64,000 nucleotides of DNA, taken from contig NZ_AP023355.1 in assembly GCF_016865425.1 (NCBI RefSeq), positions 990,198 to 1,054,197 on the forward strand, in the 5' to 3' direction. The stretch's first letter is position 1; each line of letters begins with the position of its first letter. The notes beneath the pieces were generated by a model. The model had not been told where the DNA came from and made no database searches. It was given only the letters and a program-made list of their open reading frames with translations. Shown here piece by piece: positions 11,785 through 36,348 of the stretch. Position numbers and translations under genes: made by a program. This stretch comes from Actinocatenispora thailandica (lineage in GTDB: Bacteria; Actinomycetota; Actinomycetes; Mycobacteriales; Micromonosporaceae).

Positions 11785-12525
11785 TCACTCCCCGCCGCTG
11801 TTCGCCAGCCGGAGCTGGGTGCAGGTGTAGTGCCGCAGGGCGGCCAGGTCGACCGGGCGTAGCACGTCGCAGACCCAGTTCCAGTGCATCGCCACCGATC
11901 GGCCCGGCCGGATCCCCGGGACCAGCCGGTAGCCGCGACGGCCCACCCGCACGGCCGCCACGTGCGGCGCCCCCAGCGCGAGACGGCCGGCGTGCCAGAC
12001 GAGCGGACGCTGCCGTACCAGGGCGGTGTCGCCGGACACCGACTCGACCGTGCCCCACCGGATGCGGCAGCCGTCGAGAACCCGCAGCGGCTCCTCGACC
12101 CAACCCGCGCGGAGCTGCCCGACCCACGGGTACACGGTGAAGACGTGGAAGTTGTGGTGTGCCCGCCCCGCCGCCGCGATCGCCGTGCCCAACTCCGGTT
12201 GGTGCCGGCCGAGACGGGAGGCGAAGCGGTCGACGACGTCGGTGGCGAGCAGCCGCGGCGAGACCCGCTCCAGCAGCGGGCTGCCGATCCAGTACGCGCG
12301 AACCACCGGAGCGGAGAGCGGGTCGTGGGCGCCGACCGCGGCGGCGATCAGCGTCAGGTACGGCCATGCCCCGTCGAACTGCCGGTCGAGCACCATCAGG
12401 CCGCGATCGCCGCGGCCCCGGTCGACCCGTTCGAGCAGCTCGCCCGCGTCGTCCGGTCCGCAGTAGCCCAGCGCGTTGGGCGGGTAGGCGTACCGGGCGA
12501 ACAGTACGGGGCCGGGGGCTGTCAT
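11785..12525 (-). CDS. DUF6390-type hydrogenase-associated protein
   Basis: A 246-residue soluble protein at the end of the hydrogenase operon, starting MTAPGPVLFARYAYPPNALGYCGP. It resembles the uncharacterised actinobacterial family found next to [NiFe] hydrogenase genes (DUF6390, by memory). Features include the N-terminal RYAYPPNALGYCGPDD, a Trp/His-rich centre (AHHNFHVFTVYPWVGQLRAG) and a C-terminal HWNWVCD. No cofactor motif I can name. The 4-base overlap with the EamA gene supports co-translation. A role in hydrogenase maturation or assembly is inferred from position only. Confidence 0.65.
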   Translation of the reverse strand: MTAPGPVLFARYAYPPNALGYCGPDDAGELLERVDRGRGDRGLMVLDRQFDGAWPYLTLIAAAVGAHDPLSAPVVRAYWIGSPLLERVSPRLLATDVVDRFASRLGRHQPELGTAIAAAGRAHHNFHVFTVYPWVGQLRAGWVEEPLRVLDGCRIRWGTVESVSGDTALVRQRPLVWHAGRLALGAPHVAAVRVGRRGYRLVPGIRPGRSVAMHWNWVCDVLRPVDLAALRHYTCTQLRLANSGGE

Positions 12526-13433
12526 GGCACCGGCCTCGCGGGGCGACGGCTGCCGGCGACGACGATCGCTGCCCCGGCGGCCAGCAGCGCCATGCCGGCG
12601 ACGGCGGCGGGAGCCGGTACGGCCAGGGTGGTGAGGGCCGACAGCCCGGCGGTGAGCAGCGCCGCGCTGGACAGCGCCGCCGTGGCATCGATCGCCGGCG
12701 CCCGGGACAGCGCGGCGAACCAGGTCGTCACGTACGCCGCGAGCAGCGTGCCGGTCACGCCGGCCCACGCCCACCCGGCCGGCCCGAGATGCAGCATGGC
12801 CGGCCAGCGCCCGGTCACGGCGATCCAGCCGAGCAAGGCCAGCACACCGATGCCCATCCGGTACAGCGCGAGCGGGAGCGCGCCGAGGTCGGCCAGCAGC
12901 AGCTTGACCACGATCACCTCGCCGGACCACAGCAGCGTGGCGGCCGCCACCATCAGCTCGCCGCGGTCGGCGACCATCCCGGCCAGCCCACCCTCCAGTA
13001 CGACCAGGCCCGTCACGATCGCCGCGACGGCCAGCACGTGCCGTGCCTTCAGCCGTTCGTGCAGGAGCAGGACGGCCAGCACCGCCACCCAGATCACCAG
13101 GGTCTTCTGCAGGAACCCGGCGTGCGTCGACGAGGTGCGGGACAGCCCCTCGAAGAACAGGACGAAGGCCGCGGCCCCACCTACGAGTCCGACGGCCGCG
13201 ACGCCCAGCACCTGCCGGGCGCCACGTGGCCGCCACCGGGCGCCTCCCGGCCGGCGTACCGCCGCGACCGCCACGGCGGCGAGCAGCGCGGTCGCGACGA
13301 GGTTCTTGGCGGTGGTGTAGACGGTGGGGTCGGGCGCGGTGGACACGCCCTGGGCGTTGACGAAGACCGCCACGCCGCTGATGGCGGCGGCCACGAACGC
13401 CAGCGCGACGCCCCGGCGGGCACGGCTGCTCAT
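12522..13433 (-). CDS. EamA/DMT-superfamily transporter
   Basis: A 303-residue protein with ten predicted helices and the two-fold EamA repeat (LVATALLAAVAVAAV... and TAGLSALTTLAVPAPAAVAGMALLAAG). Family members export amino acids, nucleosides or other metabolites; the substrate is unknown here. It overlaps both neighbours by 4 bases (HypC upstream, DUF6390 downstream), so it is translated as part of the hydrogenase unit. A transporter within a maturation block is unusual; nickel import is not a known EamA function, so no metal role is claimed. Confidence 0.8.
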   Translation of the reverse strand: MSSRARRGVALAFVAAAISGVAVFVNAQGVSTAPDPTVYTTAKNLVATALLAAVAVAAVRRPGGARWRPRGARQVLGVAAVGLVGGAAAFVLFFEGLSRTSSTHAGFLQKTLVIWVAVLAVLLLHERLKARHVLAVAAIVTGLVVLEGGLAGMVADRGELMVAAATLLWSGEVIVVKLLLADLGALPLALYRMGIGVLALLGWIAVTGRWPAMLHLGPAGWAWAGVTGTLLAAYVTTWFAALSRAPAIDATAALSSAALLTAGLSALTTLAVPAPAAVAGMALLAAGAAIVVAGSRRPARPVP

Positions 13434-13654
13434 CTCGACTCCCCGGCCGCGCGGGCGGCCCTGGCCAGCTGGTCCGCCTCCGGCGGCGAGATCCGGGCCA
13501 CCGCCAGCCCGCACTGGATCAGCAGCTGGTCGCCGACCCGTACCGGATCGTCCACGGCAGTCAGCGGGACCACCCGGACCTGTCCGCCGAGTTCGACTTC
13601 GGCGCGCTCGTCGTCCAGGACGTCGACGACCTGGCCGATCTGGGTCAGACACAT
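13430..13654 (-). CDS. hypC: HypC/HupF/HybG-type hydrogenase maturation chaperone
   Basis: A 74-residue HypC-family chaperone that, in characterised systems, binds HypD and the immature large subunit while the Fe(CN)2CO group is delivered. The essential Cys2 is present (MCLTQIGQV), followed by the beta-barrel VELGGQVRVVPLTAV...VRVGDQLLIQCGLAVARIS. Length fits. It lies between the maturation protease (1-base overlap) and the EamA gene (4-base overlap). The other hyp genes (A, B, D, E, F) are not in this window and must be elsewhere. Confidence 0.9.
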   Translation of the reverse strand: MCLTQIGQVVDVLDDERAEVELGGQVRVVPLTAVDDPVRVGDQLLIQCGLAVARISPPEADQLARAARAAGESR

Positions 13655-14106
13655 CAGGCACGCTCCAGGTGGCTGCGGATCCGGTTGGCGAGCACCGACA
13701 CGGCGCGCCGCACCGCGGGATCGAGGCCGACGCCCAGGCTGGTGTCGGCGGGTTCGATGCTGTACAGCACCAGGTGGCGGGGGAGCCGCCGCAGCACGCG
13801 GGCAAGCTCGATCGCCTCACCCAGCCCGATGCCGTGGCTGCTCGCGTTCCCTTCCTGGTACAGCCGATCGCGGGCCAGGTCGATGCGGTGGATCGTGCCG
13901 GGCGCCGACCGTGCGTGCCGGGCCGCGTCGATCACGATCGCCTCGCGCGCGGCCTGCCACGCGTTGATCAGCCCGGCGGGTTCCCCGTCGCTGTCGACCA
14001 CCGCGACGCCGTCGGTGGGCCGGTCGCGCAGCGCGGCGGCCACCGCGGTCCCGGCCCCGTCGTCGTGCCGGTACGGGTTGCCCACGCCGATCACCACCGT
14101 CCTCAT
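13654..14106 (-). CDS. [NiFe]-hydrogenase maturation protease (HyaD/HycI, peptidase M52)
   Basis: A 150-residue endopeptidase that removes the C-terminal tail of the hydrogenase large subunit after nickel insertion. The family fold is evident: GVGNPYRHDDGAGTAVA at the N-terminus with the first nickel-binding acidic residue, VIDAARHA with the second, and SSHGIGLGEAIELA with the His ligand. Directly downstream of the large-subunit gene with a 4-base overlap, so the protease and its substrate are co-expressed. Confidence 0.9.
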   Translation of the reverse strand: MRTVVIGVGNPYRHDDGAGTAVAAALRDRPTDGVAVVDSDGEPAGLINAWQAAREAIVIDAARHARSAPGTIHRIDLARDRLYQEGNASSHGIGLGEAIELARVLRRLPRHLVLYSIEPADTSLGVGLDPAVRRAVSVLANRIRSHLERA

Positions 14107-15398
14107 GCCCGGTCCACGGTCAGGTCCAGGAAGTGCGTGGCGCACGAGATGCACGGGTCGTAGTTGCGGATCGCGCGCTCGCAGGCGGCGGTCAGCTCGG
14201 TGTCGGGCTCGCCGATCCGGTCCTGCACCAGCCGGCGCAGGTCCTCCTCGATGGCCGCCTGGTTCTGCGCGGTCGGCGGCACGATCAGCGCGGCGGTGAT
14301 CCGGCCGGCGGAGTCCAGCGTGTACCGGTGGAACAGGCTGCCCCGCGGCGCCTCGCTGGCGCCGTAGCCGACGCCGGCGCGCGGCGGCACCGGCACGTAC
14401 GGCGGGTCGGGCGGCTGGTACCCGTCCAGGATGGTGAGCGCTTCGACGATCGCGTGCACCACCTCGACGGCGCGCACGATGATCGACCGGAACGGGTTGC
14501 GGCACACCGGTTCCAGCCCGACCCGGTCGGCGACGCGCAACGCCGGCGCGGACAGTTGCGGACGGTTGAGGGCGTAGCGGGCGAGCGGGCCGGTGAGGTA
14601 CCGGCGTCCGTCGAGCGTGGCGTGCAACGCCGTGGAGTACGGCACCTGGTGCTCGACGACGTGCCGGTCGAGGTCGGCGACCGGGAACGTGACGCCGGTC
14701 GACACGCGCGGTCGCCCGTCCTCGATCGCGTACCGGTCCGGGTCGGACAGGGCGAGGAAGTCGTGGTCGATCGTGAGGTCCGGGAAGTCGAACCCGGCCA
14801 CCCACTCCACGGTGGCGATCGCGTCCCGCAGCGCGCGGTGCAGCGGGGCCCGCAGCGCCGCGAGCGTGGCGACCGTCGGGGCGCGGTAGAAGCCGCCGAC
14901 GCGGACGTTGACCGGATGGATCGACCGTCCGCCGACGCGTTCGATCAGCAGGTTGCCGACCTTCTTCAGGGCCAGTCCCCGCTCGACGACCTGCCGGTGG
15001 TCGCGGGCGAGTTCCACCACGCCCGGGTAGCCGAGGAAGTCCGGCGCGTGCAGCAGGTAGATGTGCAGGGCGTGGCTCTCGATCCATTCCCCGCAGTACA
15101 GCAGGCGCCGCAGTTGCCGGACCGGTTCGGGCACCCGGACGCCGCAGGCGTCCTCGATCGCGTGGCAGGCGCTGATCTGGTACGCCACCGGGCAAATCCC
15201 GCAGATGCGCGCGGTGATGTCCGGCGGCTCGGTGTGGGCCCGACCGCGCAGCAGCGCCTCGAAGAAGCGGGGCGGCTCGTAGATCTGCAGCGCCACGTCG
15301 CCGACCCGGCCGTCGTCGACGGTCACCCGCATGGCGCCCTCGCCCTCCACCCGGGCGAGCGCGGAGACCTGCAGGGAACGGGTGTTGCGGTGGGTCAT
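14103..15398 (-). CDS. hyhL: [NiFe] hydrogenase large (alpha) subunit, group 3b-like
   Basis: The catalytic subunit carrying the Ni-Fe(CN)2CO site, 431 residues. The L1 motif RICGIC (Cys66, Cys69) and the L2 motif DPCISCATH (Cys416, Cys419, His422) supply the four cysteine ligands. The nine residues after His422 (FLDLTVDRA) are the expected tail for removal by the protease encoded next. With the 4Fe-4S, FAD/NAD(P) and small subunits of the operon this matches the cytoplasmic NADP-coupled group 3b (sulfhydrogenase/Hyh) class known from Pyrococcus and mycobacteria, which couples H2 and NAD(P)H in either direction. Subgroup assignment rests on operon composition rather than a tree. Confidence 0.93.
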
Positions 15399-16165
15399 GG
15401 CCGGCGCTCCGCGGCCCGGGCGAACGCGTCCGCGGCGGCGTTGAAGGTGCGGTACAACCGTCGGCGGGTGCCGTCGGGCATCCCGGAGGCGGCGAGCTGC
15501 CTGCTCAGCGCGTCGGTGTTCGGGGTGTTCATCGGGCCGAAGCAGCCGTAGCAGCCGCGTCCCAGCGACGGGCACAGGGCGCCGCAACCGGCGTGCGTGA
15601 CGGGGCCCAGGCACGGGGTGCCCTGAGTGACCATCACGCACGGGGTGCCCCGTTGCTTGCACTCGAAACACACGCTGTGCGCCGGCACGTCGGGTTCGCG
15701 CCCCGCCAGGTAGGCGGTGATGACCTCGATGAGCTGGCCCTTGTCGATCGGGCAGCCGCGCAGCTCGAAGTCGACCGGCACGTGCGCCGAGATCGGCGTG
15801 GAGGCGTCCAGGCTGTCGATGTAGCCGGGTTCGGCGTACACCACGGCGGCGTACTGCTCGACGCCGGAGAGGTTGCGCAGCGCCTGGATGCCGCCGGCGG
15901 TGGCGCAGGCGCCGATGGTGACCAGCGTGCTGGACTGCTCCCGGATCCGGTGTATCCGCTCCAGGTCGTCCGGCGTGGTGATCGACCCCTCGACCAGCGA
16001 CAGGTCGTACGGGCCGGCCACCGTCGCGCTGGAGGCCTCGGTGAAGTGCGCGATGCGTACCCGGTCGGCCAGCGGCAGCAGCTCGTCCTCGCAGTCGAGC
16101 AGGGTGAGCTGGCAGCCGTCGCAGGAGGCGAACTTCCAGACCGCCAGGGTGGGTGTTCGGTTCAC
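15395..16165 (-). CDS. hyhS: [NiFe] hydrogenase small (delta) subunit
   Basis: A 256-residue electron-transfer subunit with the proximal-cluster motif CDGCQ (Cys15, Cys18) near the N-terminus and more Cys-rich motifs for further 4Fe-4S clusters: [12 protein letters not shown], and [19 protein letters not shown]. There is no Tat signal or membrane anchor, as expected for a cytoplasmic group 3 enzyme. The GTG at 16165 is the start that overlaps the upstream gamma-subunit stop by 4 bases; the 3' end overlaps the large subunit likewise. Confidence 0.92.
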
Positions 16166-16974
16166 AGCTGAGCCACCTCCAGCAGCGGCGCGGCGACCGG
16201 GTAGCCGACGACCGGCCCGTCCCGGCACAGCAGCAGCGGTCCGAGCTGGCAGTGCCCGCAATGCCCGACGCCGCAGCGCATGGTGCGTTCCATGGAAAGC
16301 CGGATCGACCCGGGTGGCACCCCGCGGGCCAGCAGGGCGCGGATGGTGAAGCGCATCATCACCTCCGGCCCGCACACCAGGGCCAGGCAGTGCCGCGGAT
16401 CGAAGTCGGCGGTGTCCACCAGGCCCGGTACCACCCCGACGCGCCCGGCCCAGCCGGCGTCGGCGTGGTCGACCGTGACCTGGAGGTCCAGCCCGGCCCG
16501 GCGCAGCCGGCGATAGCTGCCGGCATAGAGCAGGTCGGCCGGGGTACGGGCGCCGATCAGCACCGTGACGTGGCGGTAGCGGGAGCGGTCGGCGAGGGCG
16601 TGCGCCACCACCGGCCACAGCGGCGCCGTACCGATGCCGCCGCCGACCAGCACCAGGTCGGTGCCGGCCGGTGCCGGTACGCCCCAGTCGGTGCCGAACG
16701 GGCCGCGCAGCCCGACGAGGTCTCCGTCGCGCAGGGCGTGCAACGCCCTGGTGACGGCGCCGACTCCGCGCACGGTGTGCCGGAACGTACCGTCGCTGCC
16801 GCCGGCGACGGAGAGCGGCACCTCACCGACCCCGAATGCGTACATCATGGTGAACTGGCCGGGCCGGTAGTCCGGCAGCCGCTCGCGGTGCGGGGCGAGG
16901 TCCAGCGTCACCGTGTCGGTGGTCTCGGCGCGCCTGCCGACGACCCGGTAGGCGACCGGCGTCATCTCGTCCAT
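16162..16974 (-). CDS. hyhG: Hydrogenase gamma subunit, FAD/NAD(P)-binding with 2Fe-2S
   Basis: A 270-residue ferredoxin-NADP-reductase-like (HydG/sulfhydrogenase gamma) subunit that links the electron chain to NAD(P)(H). The FAD-binding domain shows RPGQFTMMY; the nucleotide-binding part shows [16 protein letters not shown], and the FNR-type C-terminal CGPEVMMR. The end carries a 2Fe-2S-type motif C-x4-C-x2-C-x8-C ([17 protein letters not shown]). The ATG at 16974 was taken; a second ATG at 16965 is possible. It overlaps the preceding cyclic-nucleotide-domain gene by 13 bases. Confidence 0.92.
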
Positions 16975-17435
16975 GCCGGGCTCCGGTACAGGTCGAGCAG
17001 CCGCATCCGGGTGTGCTGCAACCGGTCCAGCAGTACCGGCAGGAACCGCGACATGATCGCGTACCCGAGGTCGGGATCGTCGTCGCACAGCCGCCGCAGC
17101 TGCCCGCCGTCGATCTCGCTGGTGTGCGTCGTCTCGGTCGCCTCGGCGCCGAAGTGCCACCGGTAGGGCGGGCACAGCCACGACCAGCCCAGCACGGTGC
17201 CGGCACCGAGCGTCTCGACGGTCACGTGTCCCCGGCCGGGGACCAGCGTGTCGAGACGTACCAGTCCGGTGTGGATGAGCCAGCAGCGTGCGGCGGGTTC
17301 CCCCTCCCGGAACACCCTGCTGCCGGGCGGCAGCCGCAGCGGCCGGGTCACGGTGGCGACCGCCGCCAGCTGGTCGTCGGGTATGCCGGCCAGGAACGGG
17401 TGCGTGGCCAGCTCGGCCACCGGCCCGGCGGTCAT
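16962..17435 (-). CDS. Cyclic-nucleotide-binding-domain protein of the hydrogenase operon
   Basis: A 157-residue protein that is almost entirely a Crp-type cNMP-binding beta-roll ([24 protein letters not shown] to [11 protein letters not shown]) plus a C-helix. No HTH follows, so it is not a DNA-binding Crp. Comparable stand-alone cNMP-domain genes sit in mycobacterial group 3b hydrogenase operons. It may tune the enzyme in response to a ligand or act as an assembly subunit; the bound nucleotide cannot be read, and the usual RSA-type cAMP phosphate-binding motif is not evident ([10 protein letters not shown] instead). Confidence 0.82.
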
Positions 17436-18522
17436 CCCGGCCTCCGGCCGCCGACCGGATCGACCAGTGCCGCGGCCTCCTCGGTGATGTCGATACCGAC
17501 CGGGCACCAGACGATGCAGCGCCCGCAGCCCACGCAGCCCGACTCGCCGAACTGGTCGTTCCAGCTGGACAGCTTGTGACTGAGCCACTGCCGGTACCGG
17601 CTGGCGCCGGAGCTGCGCACCGGCCCCCCGTGCAGCCGGCTGAAGTCCAGGTCGAAGCAGGAATCCCAGCGCTGCCAGCGTTCGGCGTGCTCGCCGGTCA
17701 GATCGGTGCTGTCCACGATGTCGGTACAGAAGCAGGTGGGGCACACCATGGTGCAGTTGCCGCAGGTCAGGCAGCGGGACGCGACGTCGTCCCACCGGCC
17801 GGACTCGCGCGCGGCGGCGATGGCGCCGGCCAGGTCGCCGGACGGTAGTGTCCGGCCCATCCGGTCCGCGGCGGCGTCGACCGCCGCGGCGGCGCCCGCG
17901 GCGACCGGCTGCTCCAGCGGTCGCGCCGGGATCCGCGTCAACAGCCGGGCACCGGGCTCGCTGCCGCTCTCGGCCACGTACCGGCCGTCGGGCAGCTCGG
18001 TGAGTACCACGTCGTAGCCGGACTCGGCGCGCGGGCCGCCGCCGGCCGAGACGCAGAAGCAGGTCGCCCCCGGCTCGGTGCAGTTGACGGCGACGATGAA
18101 CACCCCGTCGCGCCGTTGCGCGTACCGGCGGCCGTCGCCGAGTACCCGGTCCAGCACGCCGATCGCCCGCAGGTCGCAGGACCGGACGCCGAGGAACGCG
18201 AAGGCGGGTGGGGATCGGCGGGCTCGACCGCGCCGGCGACACCCGCGTCGGTGGACCACAGCATCTCCCGGGCCGGATGCAGGAACGTCTTCCAGGACTG
18301 CGGGCCGGCCGCGTGGCCGAACGCCAGCTGGTCCTCGCGGCGCCGCAGCCGGTACCTGCCCGCCTCCAGCTCCACGCCCCAGCCGTACGGGAGTTGGCTG
18401 GCGTCGGTGAGTTCGTCGAGGACGATGGCGTGGTCGCGCACGGTGGGGCCGATGACGCGCCGGCCGTCCGCGCGCAGCTGGTCGACCAGCCGCGCGAGGT
18501 CATCGAGTAGAACCGAGGTCAC
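17432..18522 (-). CDS. hyhB: Hydrogenase beta subunit, 4Fe-4S ferredoxin-type (frame-disrupted)
   Basis: The first gene of the hydrogenase operon, an electron-transfer subunit of about 363 residues when read across a one-base break. The N-terminal part ([16 protein letters not shown] to ...[18 protein letters not shown]) is read from GTG 18522. The rest ([22 protein letters not shown] ... [11 protein letters not shown] ... [16 protein letters not shown] ... [16 protein letters not shown]) is in the next frame. Adding one C at the GGGG run 18210-18213 (plus strand) gives [12 protein letters not shown]. Two 4Fe-4S motifs and the SCDLRA segment match sulfhydrogenase beta subunits. AGGAGG lies before the GTG start. 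Confidence 0.87.
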
Positions 18523-18659
18523 GGTGCCAGCCTCCTGTCGGCAGATCGACGGTACGGGCGAATCGTCCCGCTTCGCGAAAGTGCGGACCCTCCCCGCTCA
18601 GCAGACCGCGACGACCGGCCGGGTCCCAGAGCTGATCGGCCCCCTCCCGAGGTGCCCTG

Positions 18660-18733
18660 TGGCTCGGGCACGCCGCCCGGCACCGGGCCCCCGAGCGGGT
18701 GGCCCGTGGCTCGGACGCGCCGCCCGGCAGCGG
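18660..18733. repeat. 27-bp direct repeat upstream of hydrogenase operon
   Basis: Positions 18660-18686 and 18707-18733 are identical at 24 of 27 bases, 47 bases apart, in the non-coding gap between the flavodoxin stop and the hydrogenase start. An inverted repeat GTGCCC (18652-18657) / GGGCAC (18666-18671) overlaps the first copy, and a TTCGCGAA palindrome lies at 18572-18579. This gap must contain the hydrogenase promoter on the minus strand; the repeats are possible activator sites. Confidence 0.5.
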
Positions 18734-18759
18734 CTGCCGAACGGGCGGACCCGGCCGGC

Positions 18760-19281
18760 TCAGCCGGCCCGTCCCGGGACGGCCGCGGCCAGCTCGGCGA
18801 GGTCGACGCCCCACCGCAACGCCCGGTCGCGTTCGCCGCTGTCCAGCGGGCCCTGCATGCCGGTGACGTAGAAACTGTGCGCGGGCGCGACGATCCGTGC
18901 ACCGAGATGCCGCAGCCGGCGGTCGATCGCGCCGGCCGCCGACCCCGGCAGGCGGGTCCGGGCGTGGGTGTCGAACGCGGCGGCAAGCCGGCCGTGCAGC
19001 GGGCCCGCCGCGGCCAACCACTCGCGTACTCCACGGTCGGTGCCGCCGGCCGCCCTCTCGTCCTGCCGGGCCGCCGAACTCCGGGTGTTCGGCCGGCTCA
19101 TCCCGAACGCGTGCGTCGGCCCGCCCACCACCACCAGATCCACCGTGTCGGGTACCGGGGTCGGCGCGCCGTCGACCGAGACCACTCGCACCACGGCCCG
19201 GGTACTCAACCCCTCGGCGATCGCGCGCGCGACCTGCTCGGTGTCACCGAACATCGACTCGTACACCACCAGGGCATGCAT
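18760..19281 (-). CDS. Flavodoxin domain protein
   Basis: A 173-residue flavodoxin-like FMN protein: MHALVVYESMFGDTEQVARAIAEGL is the strand, phosphate loop and helix for FMN, and VVGGPTHAFGMSRPNTR the second FMN loop. An electron-carrier or FMN-dependent redox role is inferred. ATG 19281 follows GGGAGGAACG. It lies between the ATPase operon and the hydrogenase operon on the same strand, so it may carry low-potential electrons within this energy island, but it also has a 237-base gap to the hydrogenase and is probably a separate unit or the ATPase operon's last gene. Confidence 0.82.
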   Translation of the reverse strand: MHALVVYESMFGDTEQVARAIAEGLSTRAVVRVVSVDGAPTPVPDTVDLVVVGGPTHAFGMSRPNTRSSAARQDERAAGGTDRGVREWLAAAGPLHGRLAAAFDTHARTRLPGSAAGAIDRRLRHLGARIVAPAHSFYVTGMQGPLDSGERDRALRWGVDLAELAAAVPGRAG

Positions 19282-19406
19282 CGTTCCTCCCCCGTGCCGG
19301 TGTGCCATCCCTGCCGCCAGTGCAAACCCGGCAGCGGTCGCGCCGACAGGGCCGGACGACAGGTGGTCGCGGGCTGGACGGACCGGCACCGGCCGCGGTG
19401 CCGGGG

Positions 19407-20054
19407 TCACCGTCGCGTACCGGAGCGGCCGGGCGCCGGCGGCTCACCGGGCGGACCCACCGGGCGGCCCGGCCGGCGTGCCAGCCGCCGGCGGGTCGCC
19501 TCGTCGCGGTCGCGCTCGTCGAGTTCGACGAGCCGCCGCGACAGGGCGTCGGTCAGCAGCGGGAGCCACCCGTGCCGGAGCGCCCGCTCCCGCCGCGCGG
19601 TCGCGGCGATCTCCGCGTCCAGCACCGCCAGCGCGCGGGCGGCGGCGGCGTGCCGGCCGGCGGCGACCAGCGCGGTACGGACCGCGCGCCGGGCCTCGAC
19701 GGCCGTGGCCGCCGCGGGCTCGGGAGGCAGCGTGACGGTGACGGCCGCCGGGTAGCGCACCCCGAGGGCGGTCGCGGTGTCCACCGCCACCGACGCCGCA
19801 GCGTCCGGGGTCGCCGCCTCCAGCCTGGCCTGGCCGCCCGCGAGGCCGGTACGCAGCAGCCAGGCCTCGCTGTCGTGGACCCGGTCGGTCCAGTCGCGGG
19901 CCGCGTCGGCCGCGTCGGCGGCGAGCCGGCGCCGGACGCCGCGCAGCATCCGCAGCTTGCGCTCCAGCAGGTCCGCGCCGCGTTCCGCGGTGGCCGCCCG
20001 GTGCCGCAGCCAGGCCAGCCCGGCTCGCCCCGGAGGTACCCGCAGTCGTGCCAT
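19407..20054 (-). CDS. ntpD: V-type ATPase subunit D (central stalk)
   Basis: A 215-residue rotor-axle subunit of a V/A-type ATPase. The paired long helices at both ends are visible (LAWLRHRAATAERGADLLERKLRMLRGVRRRL and RRERALRHGWLPLLTDALSRRLVELDERDRDEATRRRL), separated by the small beta region, as in the family. The C-terminal tail is rich in Pro/Arg/Gly. Gene position after B is the usual one. 12 bases separate it from the B gene. Confidence 0.87.
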   Translation of the reverse strand: MARLRVPPGRAGLAWLRHRAATAERGADLLERKLRMLRGVRRRLAADAADAARDWTDRVHDSEAWLLRTGLAGGQARLEAATPDAAASVAVDTATALGVRYPAAVTVTLPPEPAAATAVEARRAVRTALVAAGRHAAAARALAVLDAEIAATARRERALRHGWLPLLTDALSRRLVELDERDRDEATRRRLARRPGRPVGPPGEPPAPGRSGTRR

Positions 20055-20066
20055 CCGATGCCCCGC

Positions 20067-25529: not shown

Positions 25530-25543
<14 letters not shown>

Positions 25544-28556: not shown

Positions 28557-29187
28557 GGCAACTCCCACTGGTCTGGTCCCACCGGTCCGGTCCACGCTTC
28601 GATGCTCGGGTCGCGGCACCGGCTCGGGAACGACGATCCCGCGGCACATCACCATCGTCAGTGCGGCGCCGGTGCCACCCCAGGGATGTCCGGCCCCTCT
28701 CGGACGGCCCGTCGCCCTGGCCGGACCGGGCTTGTCGGCCCGCCGCGGGTGGTGCCCGGCGTCCCCGCCCGGCGATGGTCCCGGCCGGCCCGAACCGTTC
28801 GGCACTGCTCGCCGCGCCCCACCGCATCGTGGCCGCGGGCCGGGCACCGGTGGGTGCCGCGTTCTCGACCGGAAGCGAAGCATCCGACATGTACGACTCC
28901 GCTGTGGACAACGACACCGGCCCGGCCGGCGCGGCGGACCGCCGGACCGCCGGGCCGGTCCGCCGGGCTGGTCCGCCGGGCCGGTCCGTCCGGCCGGTCC
29001 GGCGAGCCGGTCCGCCGGGCCCGCTGGCGGCCCGGACGGGTGCCCGACCCGGGTACGGATGGCCCGAGTTCACCGGGCTGTTCGGTACTGCCCGCGCCCG
29101 GCCGCCGTTGCCACCCTGATAGCAGGAGACCGTCCGGCCGGTGCCTCGCCTCGCGGTGGGTCCGGCGCAAACAGCAGGGGGTGCACG
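28557..29187. other. 631-bp divergent non-coding region before the usp operon
   Basis: The longest non-coding stretch of the window, between the Rv1733c-like gene and the universal stress protein operon. It holds a 13-bp tandem array (28947-29021) and a single DnaA-box-like TGTGGACAA at 28903-28911. I find no protein-coding frame with recognisable features. Its length suggests a complex promoter or a small RNA, neither of which I can prove. Confidence 0.45.
28947..29021. repeat. 13-bp tandem array (about 5.8 copies)
   Basis: Consecutive units of consensus CCGCCGGGCCGGT start at 28947, 28960, 28973, 28986, 28999 and 29012. Copies one and three are identical; the others differ by one to four bases. 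The period of 13 is not a multiple of three, in line with non-coding DNA. Confidence 0.85.
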
Positions 29188-30036
29188 ATGCGCAACGCGC
29201 CGATCGTGGTCGGGGTGGACGGATCGAGTTGGAGCGAGGCGGCACTGGACTGGGCGGCGGCGGAGGCGGTGCGCCGGGACACCGCGCTGAGCGTGCTGTA
29301 CGCGTTCGAGTGGCCGATCATGGGCATCCCGTTCAGCGGGGTACCGGCCGGCTACGACCCGCGGCAGCAGGCCCGGCAGATGGTGCTGCGGATGGCCGAC
29401 CGGGCCCGAGAGCAGGCCGGCTCGGTGCAGGTCACCAGCCGGCTGGACAACGGCCCGGCGGCTCGGCGGCTGCTGCTCGCCGCCGAACAGGCGTCCCTGG
29501 TGGTGGTCGGCAGCCGCGGCCTCGGCGGGTTCTCCGGGCTGCTGGCCGGCTCGGTGAGCATGCAGCTGGCCGAGCACTGTTCCCGACCGGTCGTGGTGGT
29601 GCCCTCCGGTGACGGCGGGCACGCCGACGGCCCGATCGTGCTGGGGGTGGACGGGCCGGCCAGCGACCCGGCGATCGGCTGGGCGTTCGAGGAGGCCGCC
29701 GCGCACCGCGCGCCGCTGGTCGCGGTACGGGTGTGGCCCGAACGGCCGGCGCACGCGCCGGATCTGGCCGACCCGGACGAGGAGGACGCTGCCGTCGCCA
29801 GCTACGAGCAGCTGGAACGCTGGCACCAGAAGTACCCGAAGGTGACCTTGGAGGTACGGGACCTGCGCGGCCACCCGGCCGCCCTGCTGGTGGAGCAGTC
29901 GAGCACCGCGCGGCTCGCGGTGGTCGGGGCCCGCGGGCGCGGCGGGTTCTCCGGGCTCCTGCTCGGTTCGGTCAGCCAGGGGCTGCTCCGGCACACCCAC
30001 TGCCCGGTGGCCGTGGTCCGCAACTCGGCCGAGTGA
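29188..30036 (+). CDS. Universal stress protein, tandem UspA domains
   Basis: A 282-residue protein with two UspA domains: IVVGVDGSSWSEAALDWAAAEA ... VVVGSRGLGGFSGLLAGSVS, and IVLGVDGPASDPAIGWAFEEAAA ... VVGARGRGGFSGLLLGSVSQ. Both keep the ATP-binding G-x2-G-x9-G-(S/T) pattern (GSRGLGGFSGLLAGS; GARGRGGFSGLLLGS). Proteins of this type bind ATP and support non-growing or oxygen-starved cells in mycobacteria. It is the first gene of a rightward run that continues through acetyl-CoA synthetase, dehydrogenase, ACP and aldolase genes; the ATG at 29188 follows AGCAGGGGG. Confidence 0.92.
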   Translation: MRNAPIVVGVDGSSWSEAALDWAAAEAVRRDTALSVLYAFEWPIMGIPFSGVPAGYDPRQQARQMVLRMADRAREQAGSVQVTSRLDNGPAARRLLLAAEQASLVVVGSRGLGGFSGLLAGSVSMQLAEHCSRPVVVVPSGDGGHADGPIVLGVDGPASDPAIGWAFEEAAAHRAPLVAVRVWPERPAHAPDLADPDEEDAAVASYEQLERWHQKYPKVTLEVRDLRGHPAALLVEQSSTARLAVVGARGRGGFSGLLLGSVSQGLLRHTHCPVAVVRNSAE

Positions 30037-30064
30037 GCGCCGGGCTGGGCGAAGGAGGCTTCCG

Positions 30065-31818
30065 ATGGTGCAGCCGTTCGTGCGGCCGGGCACGCCGAAC
30101 CTGGCCGACTACCGGGCCGCCCGCCGTGACTTCACCTGGTCACAGGCACGCGGCTGGCTCGACGGGCTGCCCGGCGGGCGGGGCTTGAACCTCGCGTACG
30201 AGGCGGTCGACCGGCATGCGGCACCGTTGCGGGACAAGGCGGCGATCCGGTTCGTCCGGTCCGACACCGAGATCAGCGAGCTGACCTACGGTGAGCTGGC
30301 CGAGGCGACGAGCCGGTTCGCGAACCTGCTCGCCGAGCTGGGGGTCGGCGCCGGCGAGCGGGTCTGCACGTACCTGACGCCGCGGCCGGCCCTCTACGTC
30401 GCCGCGCTCGGCACGATGAAGCGCGGCGCCGTCTACACCCCGCTGTTCCCGCGTTCGGGCCCGAACCGGTCGCGCAGCGCCTGTCGTTGAGCCGGGCGCG
30501 GGTGCTGGTGACCACGGCGCAGCTGTACGCCCGCAGGATCGCCCCGCTGCGCGACCGGCTACCCGAGCTGCGCCACGTGCTGATCGCCGACGCGGACACC
30601 GCCCCGCCCGGTACGGTCGCCCTCGATGCGGCGTTGCGCTCCGCCCGGGGCCGGTACGAGATCCCGGCGACAGATCCGGAGCAGCCGGCACTGCTGCACT
30701 TCACCAGCGGAACCACCGGCCGGCCGAAGGGCGCCGTGCACGTGCACGACGCGGCCGTCGCGCACTACGCCAGCGCCCGGTTCGCCCTGGACCTGCGGCC
30801 CGACGACGTGTTCTGGTGCACCGCCGATCCCGGCTGGGTGACCGGAACGTCCTACGGCATCCTCGCACCGCTGATGCACGGGGTGACCGTGGTCAGCGTC
30901 GCCGCCGACTTCGAGGCGCGCCGGTGGTACCGCATTCTCGACCGGATGCGGGTCACCGTCTGGTACACCGCGCCGACCGCGATCCGGATGCTGATGCGGT
31001 ACGGCGACGAGTTGCCGGGCGACTACGACCTCTCGCGGCTGCGCCACGCCGCCAGCGTCGGCGAGCCGCTCGACGCCGCAGCGGTGCGGTGGAGCACGGC
31101 GACGCTGCGGCATCCGTTCCACGACACCTGGTGGCAGACCGAGACCGGCTCGATCATGATCAGCAACTTCCCGGCGGTCGACATCCGCCCCGGTTCGATG
31201 GGCCTGCCGATGCCGGGGATCGAGGTGGCGCTGCTGGCCCGCGGCCCGGACGGCCGGGCGCGGGTGACCGGCGGGGCGGTCACCCCGATCGTCGAGCCGG
31301 AGGTGGAGGGCGAGATCGCGTTGCGGCGCGGGTGGCCGTCGATGTTTCGCGACTACCTCGATCAGCCGGAACGCTACGCGGGCTGCTTCGCCGACGACTG
31401 GTACCTGACCGGGGACATCGCCCGCCGCGACGCCGACGGCTACTACTGGTTCGCCGGTCGCGCCGACGACGTGATCAAGTCGGCCGGACACCTGATCGGC
31501 CCGTTCGAGGTCGAGTCGGTACTGATGGATCATCCGGCGGTGCTGGAGGCCGGCGTGATCGGCCGGCCGGATCCGGTGGCCGGGGAGCGGGTCAAGGCGT
31601 TCGTCACGCTGCGGCCGGGCGAGCGGCCGACCGAGCCGCTCCGGCAGGAACTGCTGGCGTTCGCCCGCCTCCGGCTGGGTGGCATCGCCCCGCGCGAGAT
31701 CGCGTTCGAGCCGAACCTGCCGCACACCCGGAGCGGGAAGGTGCTGCGCCGGCTGCTCCGGGCGCGTGACCTCGGGCTGGACGCCGGCGACCTGTCCACC
31801 CTGGAGAGCCAGCCATGA
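30065..31818 (+). CDS. acsA: Acetyl-CoA synthetase-like AMP-forming ligase (frame-disrupted)
   Basis: An ANL-superfamily ligase of about 584 residues, best fitting acetate-CoA ligase. Motifs: [21 protein letters not shown] (P-loop A3), [10 protein letters not shown] (A5, the YG/W-WQTETG typical of acetyl-CoA synthetases), [25 protein letters not shown] (A8) and [12 protein letters not shown] with the catalytic, acetylatable Lys (A10). The frame breaks near 30450-30452; one missing G restores [22 protein letters not shown]. Reaction: acetate + ATP + CoA to acetyl-CoA + AMP + PPi, in the cytoplasm. It overlaps the E1-alpha gene by 4 bases. Confidence 0.87.
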
Positions 31819-32783
31819 ACGCGCGCGGTCGCGACCTGTTCGCCTCGATGCTGCGCATCCGGCGCTTCGAGGAACGCTGCGTCGAGCTGTACAGCGCGCG
31901 GAAGATCCGCGGCTTCATGCACCTGTACATCGGGGAGGAGGCCGTGGCCGCCGGCGTGTTCGACGCGCTCGGCGCGGACGACAACGTCGTGTCCACCTAC
32001 CGCGAGCACGGCCACGCGCTCGCCCGCGGGGTGCCGATGACCGCCGTGCTCGCGGAGATGTACGGGAAGGCCACCGGATGCAGCCGCGGACGGGGAGGTT
32101 CGATGCACCTGTTCGACGTGTCCCGGCGCTTCTACGGCGGGAACGCGATCGTCGGTGGCGGCCTGCCGATCGCCGTCGGACTCGCGCTGGCGGACCGGAT
32201 GCGCGGCGCCGACCGGGTCACCGCATGCTTCTTCGGCGACGGTGCGGTCGCCGAGGGCGAGTTCCACGAATGCCTGAACCTGGCGGCACTCTGGCGGCTG
32301 CCGGTCCTGTTCTGCTGCGAGAACAACCGGTACGCGATGGGCACCGCGCTGCATCGCGCGCAGGCACAGACCGACCTCGCGCTGCGTGCCGCGTCGTACG
32401 GAATGGTGGCCTGGCCGGTCGACGGGATGGACGTGTCGGCCGTGGCGGCGGCGGCCCACCGGGCCCGGGCGCAGGTCGCCGCCACCGGGGAACCGTGCTT
32501 CCTCGAGCTGCGCACCTACCGGTTCCGGGCGCACAGCATGTACGACTCGGACCGGTACCGGGACGCGGCCGAGATCGACCGGTGGAAGCAGCGCGACCCG
32601 ATCGACACGTACGCCGCCGAGCTGCTCGGGTCGGGCGAGCTGACCGAGCAGGACCGGACCGAGCTGGAGGCCTCGGTCGGGCGCGAGATCGATGCCGCGG
32701 TCGGCGCGGCCGAGTCCGCTCCGCGGGAACCGGTCTCCGACCTGACCCGGTTCGTGCTCACCGAACCCGAGGTGCCGTCATGA
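31815..32783 (+). CDS. pdhA: 2-oxoacid (pyruvate) dehydrogenase E1 alpha
   Basis: The 322-residue alpha chain of the TPP-dependent heterotetrameric E1, which decarboxylates a 2-oxoacid, most likely pyruvate. The TPP/Mg2+ motif GDG...NN is clear ([33 protein letters not shown]), as are [11 protein letters not shown] and the phosphorylation-loop-like [11 protein letters not shown]. Fits PDH/acetoin-dehydrogenase alpha; distinguishing the two needs a tree. Four-base overlaps with both neighbours place it within one operon. Confidence 0.9.
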
Positions 32784-33775
32784 CCAACCCGCCCGCCGCG
32801 CCCGCGGCCGGCCACCCGACGTACCGGGAAGCCATCCGGGCCGCCATCCGCGACGCGCTCGACGCCGACGACCGGGTGTTCCTGATGGGCGAGGACGTCG
32901 GGCGCTACGGCGGCTGCTTCGGCGTCAGCCTGGGGCTGCTGGAGGAGTACGGCCCGGACCGGATCCGGGACACCCCGCTGTCGGAGTCCGCGTTCGTCGG
33001 GGCCGGGATCGGGGCCGCGCTGGCCGGGATGCGACCGATCGTGGAGATCATGACGGTCAACTTCAGCCTGCTGTCGCTGGACCAGATCCTCAACAACGCC
33101 GCGACCTTCTCGTACATGTCCGGCGGGCAGCTGAGCGTGCCGCTGGTCATCCGGATGACCACCGGTGCCGGGCGGCAACTCGCCGCGCAGCACTCGCACA
33201 GCCTGGAAGGCTGGTACGCCCACATTCCCGGCATCCGGGTACTGGCGCCGGCCACCGTCACCGACGCCCGCCGGATGCTGGCCCCCGCGCTCGCCGATCC
33301 GGACCCGGTGCTGATCTTCGAACACGGCACCCTCTACAACGTCGCCGGTTCCGACGATCTCGACGAGGTCGACATCGACTCGGCCGCGGTGCGCCGGGAC
33401 GGCGACGACGTGACGCTGATCGGCTACGGCGGCACCCTCGGCGTCGCACTCGCGGCGGCGGAAACCCTGGCCGGCCAAGGTATCTCGGCCGAGGTACTGG
33501 ACCTGCGGGTGCTCCGGCCGCTGGACGAGGACGCGATCGTCGGCTCGGTACGCCGTACCCACCGCGCGGTGGTCGTGGACGAGGGCTGGCGCAGCGGCAG
33601 CCTCGCCGCCGAGATCGCCGCCCGGATCACCGAGCGGGTGTTCTACGAGTTGGACGCGCCGGTGGAACGGGTGTGCGCGGCGGAGGTGCCGATGCCCTAC
33701 GCCGGTCACCTGGAACAGGCCGCGCTGCCCGGCCCGGACGACGTGGTCGCGGCGGCCCGACGAGCGGTGGGCTGA
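32780..33775 (+). CDS. pdhB: 2-oxoacid (pyruvate) dehydrogenase E1 beta
   Basis: The 331-residue beta chain of E1. The N-terminal region ([55 protein letters not shown]) forms the TPP pyrimidine-binding side, with the Glu of SESAF positioned for cofactor activation. The C-terminal transketolase domain ([39 protein letters not shown]) is complete. An N-terminal extension of about 10 residues rich in Pro/Ala precedes the domain. ATG at 32780 overlaps the alpha stop by 4 bases. Confidence 0.92.
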
Positions 33776-33778
33776 GCG

Positions 33779-35227
33779 ATGGCAGAGTTCCGGATGCCCT
33801 CCCTCGGCGCCGACATGGACGAGGGAACGCTGCTGCAGTGGCTGGTGCGTCCCGGCGACCGCGTCCGGCGGGGGGACCTGGTCGCCGTGGTCGACACGGA
33901 CAAGGCGGCGATCGACGTCGAGTGCTTCACCTCGGGCACGGTGCAGACCCTGCTCGTCGACGAGGGCACCCGGGTACCGGTCGGCACCCCGCTCGCCGTC
34001 ATCGACGACGCAGCCGAACCGGCCGCACCGGAGCCCGTGGTGCCGACAGCGGCGGTGGCCCCGGGGTCGGTCGAGCCGGCACCGGTCGAGCCGGGGCCCG
34101 CATCCGAGGTGGCGCCGGCCGAGCCGGCACGAGCGGCGCCGGCATCCGAGGTGGCGCCGGCGTCGGTCGAGCCGGCATCCGTAGAGCCGGCACCCGCAGC
34201 GGCGCCGGAGCCGGCCGCACCGGTCGCCGAGGAGGCGCCGGTCTCGCACCCGACGAGATCGGCGCGCCCCGCCTCGCCGCTGGCCCGCAGGGTCGCCGCC
34301 GATCTCGGCGTCGACCTGGCGCAGGTCACCGGTTCCGGTGCGGCGGGCGAGATTCGGGCCGTGGACGTGCGTTCGGCCGTGGCGGCCGGTACCGCTCCCG
34401 CCGCAGCCGGCGCCGAGTCGGCACCGGCCCCCGCCGCCGCTGCCGAGCCCGCCGCGGCCGGTGCGACACCGATCGCCGCCAGCGCCGCACCGACCGCGCC
34501 CGATGCGGCCACCGGGGCCCGACCCGGCGCCGGCCCGGGGCGCCGGCCCGCACCGGTACCGGACCGGCACGAGGCCCGGCGGGCGGCCACCGCGGCGCTG
34601 ATGGCGCGGGCCAAGCGGGAGATCCCGCACTACTACCTGAGCACCACGGTGGACCTCGGCACCGCCCTGGACTGGCTGCACCGGCAAAACCGGCAACTGC
34701 CGGTGGATCGGCGGATCCTGCCCGCCGCGCTGCTGGCGAAGGCCGCGGCACGGGCAGTCCGCGAAGTACCGCAGCTCAACGGCCACTTCGTCGAGGGAAA
34801 GTTCCGGGCGGCGAACCGGGTTCGGCTCGGGCTCGCGACATCGTTGCCCGAAGGCCTGCTCGTGCCCGGTATCGACGATGCCGACGAACTTCCGCTGACG
34901 GAGTTGATGACCCGGCTCAAGGACCTGGTGTCCCGAGCGCGGCTGGGTCGGCTGCGCAACGCCGAACTGGCCGAGCCGTCGATCACCGTGTCGAACCTGG
35001 GTGACCAGGGTGTCGAAGCGCTGTTCGGCGTCATCTACCCACCGCAGGTTGCCCTGGTCGGCTTCGGCACCGTGGTCGAACGGCCCTGGGCCCTCGACGG
35101 CCTGATCGGGGTGCGGCCCGTCGTCACGGTGAGCCTGTCCGCGGATCACCGGGTGACCGACGGCGCGGTGGGAGCACGGTACCTGCGCCGGATCGACCGG
35201 CACCTCAACCACCCGGAGGAGCTGTGA
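33779..35227 (+). CDS. pdhC: 2-oxoacid dehydrogenase E2, dihydrolipoamide acyltransferase
   Basis: A 482-residue E2: one N-terminal lipoyl domain with the modified Lys in DTDKAAIDVE (residue about 42); a long Ala/Pro/Glu linker (about 80-155) with near-repeats of EPASVEPAP; the peripheral-subunit-binding domain (SPLARRVAADLGVDLAQVTGSGAAGEIRAVDV); a second Ala/Pro linker; and the catalytic domain ending DHRVTDG with the active-site His/Asp. It transfers the acyl group to CoA. No E3 (lipoamide dehydrogenase) gene accompanies it; E3 must come from elsewhere. Its stop overlaps the ACP start. Confidence 0.93.
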   Translation: MAEFRMPSLGADMDEGTLLQWLVRPGDRVRRGDLVAVVDTDKAAIDVECFTSGTVQTLLVDEGTRVPVGTPLAVIDDAAEPAAPEPVVPTAAVAPGSVEPAPVEPGPASEVAPAEPARAAPASEVAPASVEPASVEPAPAAAPEPAAPVAEEAPVSHPTRSARPASPLARRVAADLGVDLAQVTGSGAAGEIRAVDVRSAVAAGTAPAAAGAESAPAPAAAAEPAAAGATPIAASAAPTAPDAATGARPGAGPGRRPAPVPDRHEARRAATAALMARAKREIPHYYLSTTVDLGTALDWLHRQNRQLPVDRRILPAALLAKAAARAVREVPQLNGHFVEGKFRAANRVRLGLATSLPEGLLVPGIDDADELPLTELMTRLKDLVSRARLGRLRNAELAEPSITVSNLGDQGVEALFGVIYPPQVALVGFGTVVERPWALDGLIGVRPVVTVSLSADHRVTDGAVGARYLRRIDRHLNHPEEL

Positions 35228-35466
35228 ACACGCACGATGCACGCCAGGCGGTCCTCGACTCGTTGCTGATGATCGCGCCCGAGGCCGACCCGCAGCGGAT
35301 CGATCCCGACGATCCGCTGCGGGAGGCCGCCGGGCTCGACTCGCTGGACTTCCTGTCCTTCGTCGAGAACCTCAGTACCCGCACCGGAACCAGGATCGAG
35401 GAGTCCGACTATGACGACCTTGCGACCATCGCCGACGCGACCGCCTTCGTCCAGCGCGCCGCCTGA
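35224..35466 (+). CDS. Acyl carrier protein (PP-binding)
   Basis: An 80-residue acyl carrier protein: GLDSLDFLSFVENL carries the DSL serine (residue about 40) for phosphopantetheine, followed by an acidic helix (RIEESDYDDLATIADATAFV). It starts with GTG at 35224, overlapping the E2 stop by 3 bases, so it is co-translated with the dehydrogenase genes. A dedicated ACP in a 2-oxoacid dehydrogenase operon is unusual. It might accept acyl groups from E2 or the ligase, or carry lipoic-acid precursors; these are inferences. Confidence 0.87.
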   Translation: MNTHDARQAVLDSLLMIAPEADPQRIDPDDPLREAAGLDSLDFLSFVENLSTRTGTRIEESDYDDLATIADATAFVQRAA

Positions 35467-36348
35467 GCCGGCCGGCCGCCTCGCCGGGCGCGGGCTCGGC
35501 CCCGGGCAGACGACGCGGCTGAACCGGATCCTCTACCAACACGGCCAGCGCAACGGCAGGGCGCTGTTCCTGCCGTACGACCAGGGATTCGAGCACGGAT
35601 GAGGGACTTCGCGGCCAACCCGGCCGCGGGCGACCCGCGCTACGTGCTCAAGCTCGCGGTCGAGGGTGGCTTCAACGGCATCGTGCTGCAGATCGGCCTG
35701 GCCGAGAAGTTCCACTGGGAGTACGCGGGCGAGATCCCGCTGATCCTCAAGCTCAACGGCAAGACCGACATCCCGTCCGATGCCGAGGCGCTGTCCCCGC
35801 TGCACGCCTCGGTCGCCGAGGCGGTGCGGCTGGGTGCCGACGCCGTCGGCTACACGATGTACGTCGGGACGCCCGCGGCCGGTGCCGACTTCGCGCAGTA
35901 CCGGGAGGTCCGCGAACAGGCGCGGCTGCTCGGCATGCCGCTGGTGGTGTGGGCGTACCCGCGCGGGGCGGCGATCGAGGGCAAGGGCGGGCGCGACTCG
36001 TTCTACGCGGTCGACTACGCGGCGCGGGTGGCCAGCGAGCTCGGCGCCGACGTGGTGAAGGTCAACTTTCCGCACCCGGAGAAGCAGGACCAGGTGCCGG
36101 CCGCGTACCGGCGGCCGATCGACAGCCAGGACGCCATCGCCGCGGTGGTACGGTCCGCCAACCGGACGCTGCTGCTGGTGTCCGGTGGCGCCCGGGCGGG
36201 TGATGCGGAGATGCTCGACAAGGCGCGGCAGTCCATCCGGGCGGGCGCGACCGGGCTGATCTTCGGACGGAACGTCTGGCAGCGGGAGCACGAGGAGTCG
36301 TTGCGGTTGGTCGGGCAGCTACAGCGGATCCTGGCCGGGGCCGGCTGA
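35411..36348 (+). CDS. Class I fructose-bisphosphate aldolase, DeoC/FbaB-type (frame-disrupted)
   Basis: A TIM-barrel aldolase of about 312 residues across one break; it makes or cleaves fructose 1,6-bisphosphate through a lysine Schiff base. The first part (RLNRILYQHGQRNGRALFLPYDQGFEHG) ends at TGA 35600-35602. The remainder (RDFAANPAAGDPRYVLKLAVEGGFNGIVLQIGLAEKF ... LILKLNGKTDIPS ... DVVKVNFPHPEKQ ... LLLVSGGARAGD) is in the next frame. Adding one base near 35597-35602 gives a continuous EHG-x-RDF. The Schiff-base Lys is expected in VVKVNF. The start ATG 35411 has GAGGAG seven bases before it, but lies within the ACP gene (56-base overlap). Confidence 0.83.

Follow-up and report, generated by a model that had tools for sequence, protein, structure and literature searches.

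A hydrogenase, V-type ATPase and acetyl-CoA island of Actinocatenispora thailandica as a candidate part of the DevR/OsdR dormancy regulon

This study concerns a 64,000-nucleotide stretch of the Actinocatenispora thailandica genome (positions 990198-1054197 of one 7.43-Mb contig; G+C 74%), here called the window, and an island within it where four blocks of genes lie side by side: a [NiFe] hydrogenase operon, a V-type ATPase operon, a group of dormancy-type proteins, and genes for an acetate-CoA ligase (acs) and pyruvate dehydrogenase (PDH). We propose, with a probability of roughly two in three, that the island is an accessory fermentation and proton-gradient kit of the DevR/OsdR dormancy regulon. 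The genes, the box sequences in their promoters, the orthologues of the regulator and its sensor, and the accessory status of the region can be read directly from the genome. The original prediction, made from the sequence of this DNA, had placed the four blocks between 11785 and 36348, and family scans of the whole set confirm those positions.

The promoters of the island carry predicted binding sites for a regulator of the DevR/OsdR type. A recurring CCGAACGG-like word was noticed by eye in window promoters before the motif search, and three promoter regions, 18523-18759, 26873-27175 and 28557-29187, had been named in advance as possible holders of a shared motif. Scored with a matrix built from 25 published OsdR sites (Table 1 of PMC5069765; training scores 11.4 to 18.7), all three contain predicted boxes:

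18628-18643: OsdR/DevR-like box, score 10.5, 106 bp before hyhB
26931-26946: OsdR/DevR box AGGGCCGAACGGGCCT, score 18.1, the best in the window, 59 bp before the V-ATPase operon
27018-27033: OsdR/DevR box GGGGCCGCACGGCCCT, score 13.6, in the gap from which the V-ATPase and CBS genes diverge
28682-28697: OsdR/DevR box, score 13.0, upstream of both the Rv1733c-like gene (126 bp) and the universal stress protein (USP) gene (about 490 bp)

Together the three regions (1171 bp) hold four sites scoring at least 10 and three scoring at least 12, where 0.09 and 0.02 are expected (p ~3e-6 and ~1e-6); the expectation derives from five sites of at least 10 and one of at least 12 in 62,625 intergenic bases of the same genome. 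By operon, the boxes are strong before the V-ATPase and CBS genes and the Rv1733c-like gene, moderate before the hydrogenase, and distant from the USP-acs-PDH operon. Seven sites in the window score at least 10, the other three being 23505 (10.9, inside a gene), 38633 (10.0, outside the island) and 58449 (14.2).

The window box has the Streptomyces form, GGGCC, whereas the mycobacterial DosR box has the form GGGAC. None of three spacings of the latter (GGGAC...GTCCC) is matched exactly within the island; single-mismatch matches there are confined to 34920 and 21330, both inside genes, and totals for the DosR form in the window are 2, 5 and 5 against shuffled means of 9.6, 10.3 and 9.7. Absent from the island promoters, the mycobacterial box was rejected as the control site of the island. 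The claim that the blocks share hypoxia control finds support from sequence in the predicted boxes and in the DevR and DevS orthologues of the same genome.

Two host regulators find their best match among solved structures of the Protein Data Bank in DevR (3c3w; E values 6e-70 and 1e-80), with VraR next (2e-40 and 1e-44). The first DevR orthologue, at 7364061-7364702, has boxes scoring 16.6 and 12.8 upstream; a USP gene (PF00582) adjoins it on one side, and on the other a nitroreductase-like gene (a sub-threshold match) is followed by a kinase gene. This first kinase matches the DevS GAF domains at 5e-49 and the structure 2vzw, which we take to be DosT, at 3e-55, and its alignment keeps both residues that are presumably the heme-ligand His and the distal Tyr. 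The second orthologue likewise has a USP gene next to it and, nearby, a second kinase (DevS GAF, 2e-40). A DevR-type regulator and a putative heme-GAF kinase are present, that is, in the same genome as the island. As a separate observation, a P-type ATPase at 2633-7725 of the fetched stretch L176, about 11 kb from the first DevR orthologue, appears by eye to belong to a KdpABC-like potassium pump operon.

Relatives of V-ATPase subunit A are encoded in 227 genome stretches, of which the best 80 were fetched; this set is biased to Streptomyces and its members are mutually related, and the loci were assigned to Streptomycetaceae or to other families by hand. A palindrome search of the 80 loci (226,004 intergenic bases), run without a preset motif, returned GGGCCG-2-CGGCCC at the top; it occurs in 21 loci, where Markov shuffles give 0.7, and GGGCC-4-GGCCC occurs in 30, where they give 3.6. 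The top palindrome was recognised after the search as the OsdR consensus AGGGCCGATCGGCCCT of Streptomyces coelicolor, for which gel shifts on several sites are reported (PMC5069765). V-ATPase promoters score at least 10 in 30 of 36 Streptomycetaceae loci; the controls pass that mark in 36 of 960 cases (random 800-bp windows) and in 34 of 496 (windows within V-ATPase genes). A score of at least 12 is reached by 28 of 62 V-ATPase promoters; 200 column-permuted matrices gave 1.7 on average (sd 2.5) and 25 at most. When promoters are cut by gene model, 28 of 57 score at least 10 and 26 at least 12, the figures for other intergenic segments of the same loci being 68 and 42 of 425. Boxes of at least 12 precede acs in six of seven cases among the relatives, and CBS promoters reach 10 in 28 of 40, often in the same divergent gap as the V-ATPase. 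As far as these predicted sites go, the box is firmly conserved before the V-ATPase, CBS and acs genes of Streptomycetaceae and weakly before the hydrogenase; in other families it is absent or unrecognised.

Under the proposed reading, low oxygen would cause the heme-GAF kinase to phosphorylate the DevR/OsdR-type regulator, which would then occupy the GGGCCGNNCGGCCC boxes that precede the V-ATPase operon, the CBS-BON and Rv1733c-like genes and the USP-acs-PDH operon, with weaker binding at the hydrogenase operon. Pyruvate dehydrogenase would supply acetyl-CoA and NADH, and the group 3b-type hydrogenase would release electrons of NAD(P)H in the form of H2. With an F-type synthase also in the cell, the V-type ATPase would be a second rotary machine, spending remaining ATP on pumping protons so that the membrane stays charged; the acetate-CoA ligase could run in either direction. 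Box binding, hypoxic induction, the directions of hydrogenase, ATPase and acetate-CoA ligase, and the joint working of the blocks are what we infer from the genes and their promoters.

The V-type ATPase operon (19407-26872) is followed on the same strand by a flavodoxin gene:

18760-19410, minus strand: flavodoxin (PF00258), overlapping the end of subunit D by 4 bases
19407-20054, minus strand: V-type ATPase subunit D (PF01813, over cut-off)
20067-21427, minus strand: V-type ATPase subunit B (Pfam, over cut-off; frame break near 20753)
21424-23129, minus strand: V-type ATPase catalytic subunit A (P-loop present; frame break near 21707; end inferred)
23117-23611, minus strand: probable V-type ATPase subunit E (from position and relatives; no Pfam match)
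23608-23853, minus strand: probable V-type ATPase subunit F (from position and a reading of the sequence; no family match)
23847-24269, minus strand: V-type ATPase rotor subunit K/c (PF00137, over cut-off)
24263-25543, minus strand: V-type ATPase subunit I/a (PF01496, over cut-off)
25530-26435, minus strand: V-type ATPase subunit C (PF01992 at 20.9 bits, below the cut-off of 29; its position is that of the annotated subunit in relatives)
26432-26872, minus strand: probable V-type ATPase stalk subunit G/H (from position and relatives; no Pfam match)

One operon holds V-type subunits A, B, D, I and K, each over its Pfam cut-off; the gene order is that annotated in Streptomyces fungicidicus plasmid p1, and as a V/A-type ATPase operon it looks complete. 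The E-position protein of the p1 record gave no tblastn match. A fusion of A and B, suggested by a single 1020-aa open frame, was rejected: the end of A and the start of B lie in other frames. Since the genome also encodes an F-type ATP synthase, the V-type enzyme is an additional one. Among 78 rotor subunits, Gly follows the key Glu in all 78 and helix 1 carries Gln in none; by the sodium rule for rotor subunits, which turns on the helix-1 Gln and the residue after the Glu, this pattern favours protons over sodium as the predicted ion. In a tree of subunit A (82 rows) the window sequence is sister to Streptomycetaceae on a long branch, with support (87/79) that is not firm.

The dormancy-type proteins and the acs-PDH genes occupy 27176-36348:

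27176-27877, plus strand: CBS-BON protein (two PF00571 domains and PF04972, both families over cut-off)
27909-28556, minus strand: Rv1733c family membrane protein (NF050032, over cut-off; no Pfam match)
29188-30036, plus strand: double-domain USP (PF00582)
30065-31818, plus strand: AMP-forming acetate-CoA ligase, acs (PF00501 in both pieces; frame break near 30450)
31815-32783, plus strand: pyruvate dehydrogenase E1 alpha (TIGR03182, over cut-off)
32783-33775, plus strand: pyruvate dehydrogenase E1 beta (NF006667, over cut-off)
33779-35227, plus strand: E2 lipoyl acyltransferase (HxxxDG motif; Pfam domains; NCBIfam matches below cut-offs)
35227-35463, plus strand: acyl carrier protein (PF00550)
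35465-36348, plus strand: class I aldolase (frame break near 35596; start uncertain)

The Rv1733c and USP families are members of the mycobacterial DosR/DevR regulon. The gap between the USP gene and acs is only 28 bases, which suggests that the two share one transcript. The C-terminal piece of acs has its best match in NF003313, at 679 bits (the whole-protein cut-off is 729). E1 alpha, E1 beta and E2 of pyruvate dehydrogenase are found together; an E3 lipoamide dehydrogenase is absent from the genes of this operon, no genome-wide search for E3 having been made.

The hydrogenase operon, read in its own direction, runs HyhB, cyclic-nucleotide-binding protein, HyhG, HyhS, HyhL, protease, HypC-like protein, EamA transporter and DUF6390 protein (11785-18522):

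11785-12519, minus strand: DUF6390 protein at the end of the hydrogenase operon (PF19927)
12522-13445, minus strand: EamA-type transporter (PF00892)
13436-13666, minus strand: HypC-like chaperone (TIGR00074 at 32 bits, below the NCBIfam cut-off of 48)
13654-14115, minus strand: hydrogenase maturation protease (TIGR00072, over cut-off)
14103-15398, minus strand: HyhL, large subunit of the [NiFe] hydrogenase (Ni site: two CxxC motifs present)
15395-16165, minus strand: HyhS, small subunit (family scans)
16162-16983, minus strand: HyhG, FAD/NAD(P)-binding subunit (family scans)
16962-17444, minus strand: cyclic-nucleotide-binding domain protein of about 160 aa (PF00027, over cut-off)
17432-18522, minus strand: HyhB, iron-sulphur subunit (family scans; frame break near 18205)

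The set of HyhB, HyhG, HyhS and HyhL, with a large subunit that carries both CxxC motifs of the Ni site, is that of a [NiFe] hydrogenase which we take to be of group 3b; its NCBIfam sulfhydrogenase matches fall below cut-offs, and the best match of HyhL among solved structures is sulfhydrogenase 1 (2e-66). The cyclic-nucleotide-binding gene between HyhB and HyhG is placed in the same way in a Kutzneria locus (L022). The DUF6390 and EamA genes at the operon's end (11785-13445) have no match in 60 relative V-ATPase loci, few of which carry a hydrogenase.

How far the blocks belong together can be judged from their neighbourhood in relatives, counted in the 60 of the 80 loci that span at least 21 kb (20 shorter loci were dropped), with 40 random 20-kb regions as controls, these being drawn from two genomes of the window's genus and not from the relatives' genomes. 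A CBS match lies near the V-ATPase in 35 of the 60 and a USP in 37, and at least three of acs_c, E1a, E1b and E2 in 13; among the random regions CBS, USP, E1a, E1b, E2 and each hydrogenase subunit are found in 0 of 40, acs_c in two and acs_n in one. The grouping of the blocks exceeds chance. At least two hydrogenase subunits lie near the V-ATPase in six of the 60, from Rhodococcus rhodnii, Kutzneria, Dactylosporangium roseum, Saccharopolyspora shandongensis and two Microtetraspora (L018, L022, L050, L063, L069, L071), and on a Streptomyces plasmid record (L003) a span of about 17 kb contains the V-ATPase together with CBS, USP and hydrogenase. In a survey of 383 genomes of the class (subunit A at E values to 1e-140, HyhL to 1e-120), subunit A occurs in 12, HyhL in 37 and both in seven (Fisher p 2.5e-5; with the window's own genome left out, 1.5e-4); of these seven, the two are close together in the window's own genome and on different contigs in five, where they may still be neighbours. 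Two phylum surveys do not enter the argument. That by subunit D gave 93 of 396 genomes, of which 92 lie outside the window's class and the remaining one is the window's own; it was set aside because the window's D is divergent (1e-19) and the 1e-8 cut-off may miss its nearest kin; that by HyhL (48 of 396) was superseded by the class survey. Conserved synteny of the four blocks, as first envisaged, is present in a loose form, with CBS, USP and acs-PDH recurring and the hydrogenase seldom included; to call the blocks a single module was too strong, even though their grouping is beyond chance.

Several observations weigh against our proposal. The hydrogenase lies near the V-ATPase in only six of the 60 loci, it is 3.5 Mb from the V-ATPase in the remaining genome with both (G505, a single contig), its box is the weakest of the promoter boxes, and one of four linked HyhB promoters in relatives reaches 10. 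The USP-acs-PDH operon has its nearest scoring box about 490 bp away, a closer one scoring 7.0, and among relatives 11 of 39 USP promoters and none of three E1a upstream segments reach 10. Outside Streptomycetaceae only two of 26 V-ATPase promoters reach 10, and no convincing substitute palindrome was found in those 26, where AGGG-8-CCCT, present in five against 0.25 expected, is a faint hint. The site at 58449 falls in a predicted coding segment (58015-59436) beyond the island. Finally, five genes of the island are frame-broken in the sequence as given.

Some of these points would suit a different account, the strongest of the alternatives but in our view unlikely, in which independent hypoxia-related genes have gathered at one variable spot and some share the dormancy regulator, without any joint function of hydrogenase and V-ATPase. 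The rarity of the hydrogenase near the V-ATPase is as this account would have it, and so are the occurrence of the V-ATPase on Streptomyces plasmid records and the accessory nature of the region, which is replaced in another genome of the genus (G001):

3559-3633, plus strand: tRNA-Ala (ggc; ARAGORN), left edge of the accessory region
3634-36357: accessory region, absent from G001, where the shared flanks enclose 3.85 kb of other DNA

The region begins at 3634, not at 11785 where the first block had been thought to start, and 3634-11784 contains ordinary genes (MFS, LysR, SDR, MarR) unrelated to the four blocks, again as a mere gathering would predict. Against it stand the recurrence of CBS, USP and acs-PDH beside the V-ATPase across families, the predicted boxes in all three island promoter regions, and the co-occurrence of V-ATPase and hydrogenase across the 383 genomes.

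Between matching flanks (1-3632 and 36358 onward) the window has 32.7 kb and G001, on its contig 133, 3.85 kb; the left flank matches G001 in three pieces at 86-92% identity, ending at the 3' end of the tRNA-Ala. Two further genomes of the genus, G003 and G002, match the window from 36363 and 36367 on, respectively, and in the 40 kb fetched of each no left-side counterpart was found except one 65% match in G002. V-ATPase subunit D is found in one of the four genomes of the genus, the window's own. An integrative element at the tRNA gene was considered and rejected: the window holds no second copy of the tRNA-Ala 3' end with up to 3 mismatches allowed, and no integrase is among its genes covered by the family scans. 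For these two reasons the region is termed a variable spot rather than an integrative element. A direct-repeat test, run within each edge and not between the two, gave no 15-base repeat for the left edge (3500-3900) and a single imperfect 16-base pair for the right (36200-36600). Just outside the island, beside a TetR gene, two exact GGGAC-4-GTCCC palindromes (36964 and 36996, in 36964-37009), reverse complements of each other, are likely operators of that adjoining repressor.

It has also to be asked whether the V-type enzyme might be an ATP synthase, or have a developmental or envelope role, and not be a hypoxia pump. Among solved structures, those that match subunit A best bear the name V-type ATP synthase alpha chain, and OsdR of S. 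coelicolor also touches development (PMC5069765). Such roles seem improbable to us, however, given neighbours of hypoxia and dormancy type and an F-type synthase already in the cell.

The five frame breaks (hyhB near 18205, V-ATPase B near 20753 and A near 21707, acs near 30450, aldolase near 35596) raise the question of decay. For the four broken genes where it was computed, gene length is 2 modulo 3, which is what a single lost base would produce. One-base losses also occur outside the island, near 40090, 48471 and 49129 relative to both G001 and G003 and at 215 relative to G001, and these are probably residual indels in the assembly. A run of 4-5 G or C is present at all four flank losses and at three of the five island breaks, those of acs and the aldolase being without one. 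Far-stop frame transitions number four in the window (64 kb), nine in 400 kb of the same genome and two in 400 kb of G003; the window's excess over its genome's average weakly favours a local problem. rpoB is a single open frame in the genome, and HyhL, subunit A, E2 and acs all have the active-site motifs that were sought in them. Because the conserved flanks hold the same kind of break, we judge the island breaks to be probable consensus errors rather than decay. That the island is decaying, with no working hydrogenase, V-ATPase or acetate-CoA ligase, is the least probable of the alternatives, for although the breaks themselves, the failure to find V-ATPase D in the three other genomes of the genus and the excess of frame changes speak for it, the losses in the flanks, the G/C runs at most break sites, the gene lengths of 2 modulo 3, the open rpoB and the intact motifs speak against it.

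Parts of the proposed system have close parallels. The OsdR/OsdK regulon of S. coelicolor (SCO0167-SCO0219) has the same box, USP genes, the same type of regulator and kinase, and clustered stress genes; its predicted regulon table includes nitrate reductase, USPs and others, and in the main text of that paper the words 'ATPase', 'hydrogenase' and 'pyruvate dehydrogenase' occur 0 times at word start (PMC5069765). The window hydrogenase resembles Hyd3 of Mycobacterium smegmatis (MSMEG_3931-3927), an operon of alpha, beta, gamma and delta subunits that is induced by oxygen limitation, with a rise of up to 67-fold at 0.6% oxygen saturation (PMC2799521), and for which a coupling of NAD(P)H re-oxidation to H2 evolution has been proposed (PMC4109961); the papers' passages on DosR and Hyd3 in that species contain no V-type ATPase. 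Gain of A/V-type ATP synthase genes by an actinomycete is reported for Melissospora conviva, in an account whose relevant passages contain neither regulation nor a link to hydrogenase or dormancy genes (PMC12451618). Among solved structures, sulfhydrogenase 1 has the same four subunit types as the window hydrogenase, whose operon differs in the cyclic-nucleotide-binding gene inside it and the EamA and DUF6390 genes at its end. That structure is presumably of Pyrococcus origin, as the best structural matches of subunit A are presumably from Thermus. The Thermus-type V/A-ATPase has a similar subunit set; the window operon differs from it in gene order, in its promoter boxes and in its co-existence with an F-type enzyme.

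DevR/OsdR islands, hypoxic hydrogenases of the Hyd3 type and A/V-type ATPases of actinomycetes are thus each already in print (PMC5069765, PMC2799521, PMC12451618). Direct searches gave no open-access paper that puts a V-type ATPase in a DevR/OsdR regulon, and no title among the matches listed points to one; a V-type ATPase as a predicted member of that regulon is the new part. One may go further and imagine, though we consider it doubtful, that many actinomycetes, when oxygen is lost, exchange their F-type synthase for a DevR/OsdR-induced V-type enzyme in the membrane, draw ATP for it from a reversed acetate-CoA ligase acting on PDH-derived acetyl-CoA and vent H2 through the hydrogenase, which would amount to a complete fermentation in 'obligate aerobes'.

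Finally, how aerobic actinomycetes, dormant mycobacteria included, maintain a membrane potential without oxygen is an open question. If our proposal is correct, a second rotary ATPase under the dormancy switch would be a concrete candidate for this task, and the regulon would extend from stress proteins to core bioenergetics.

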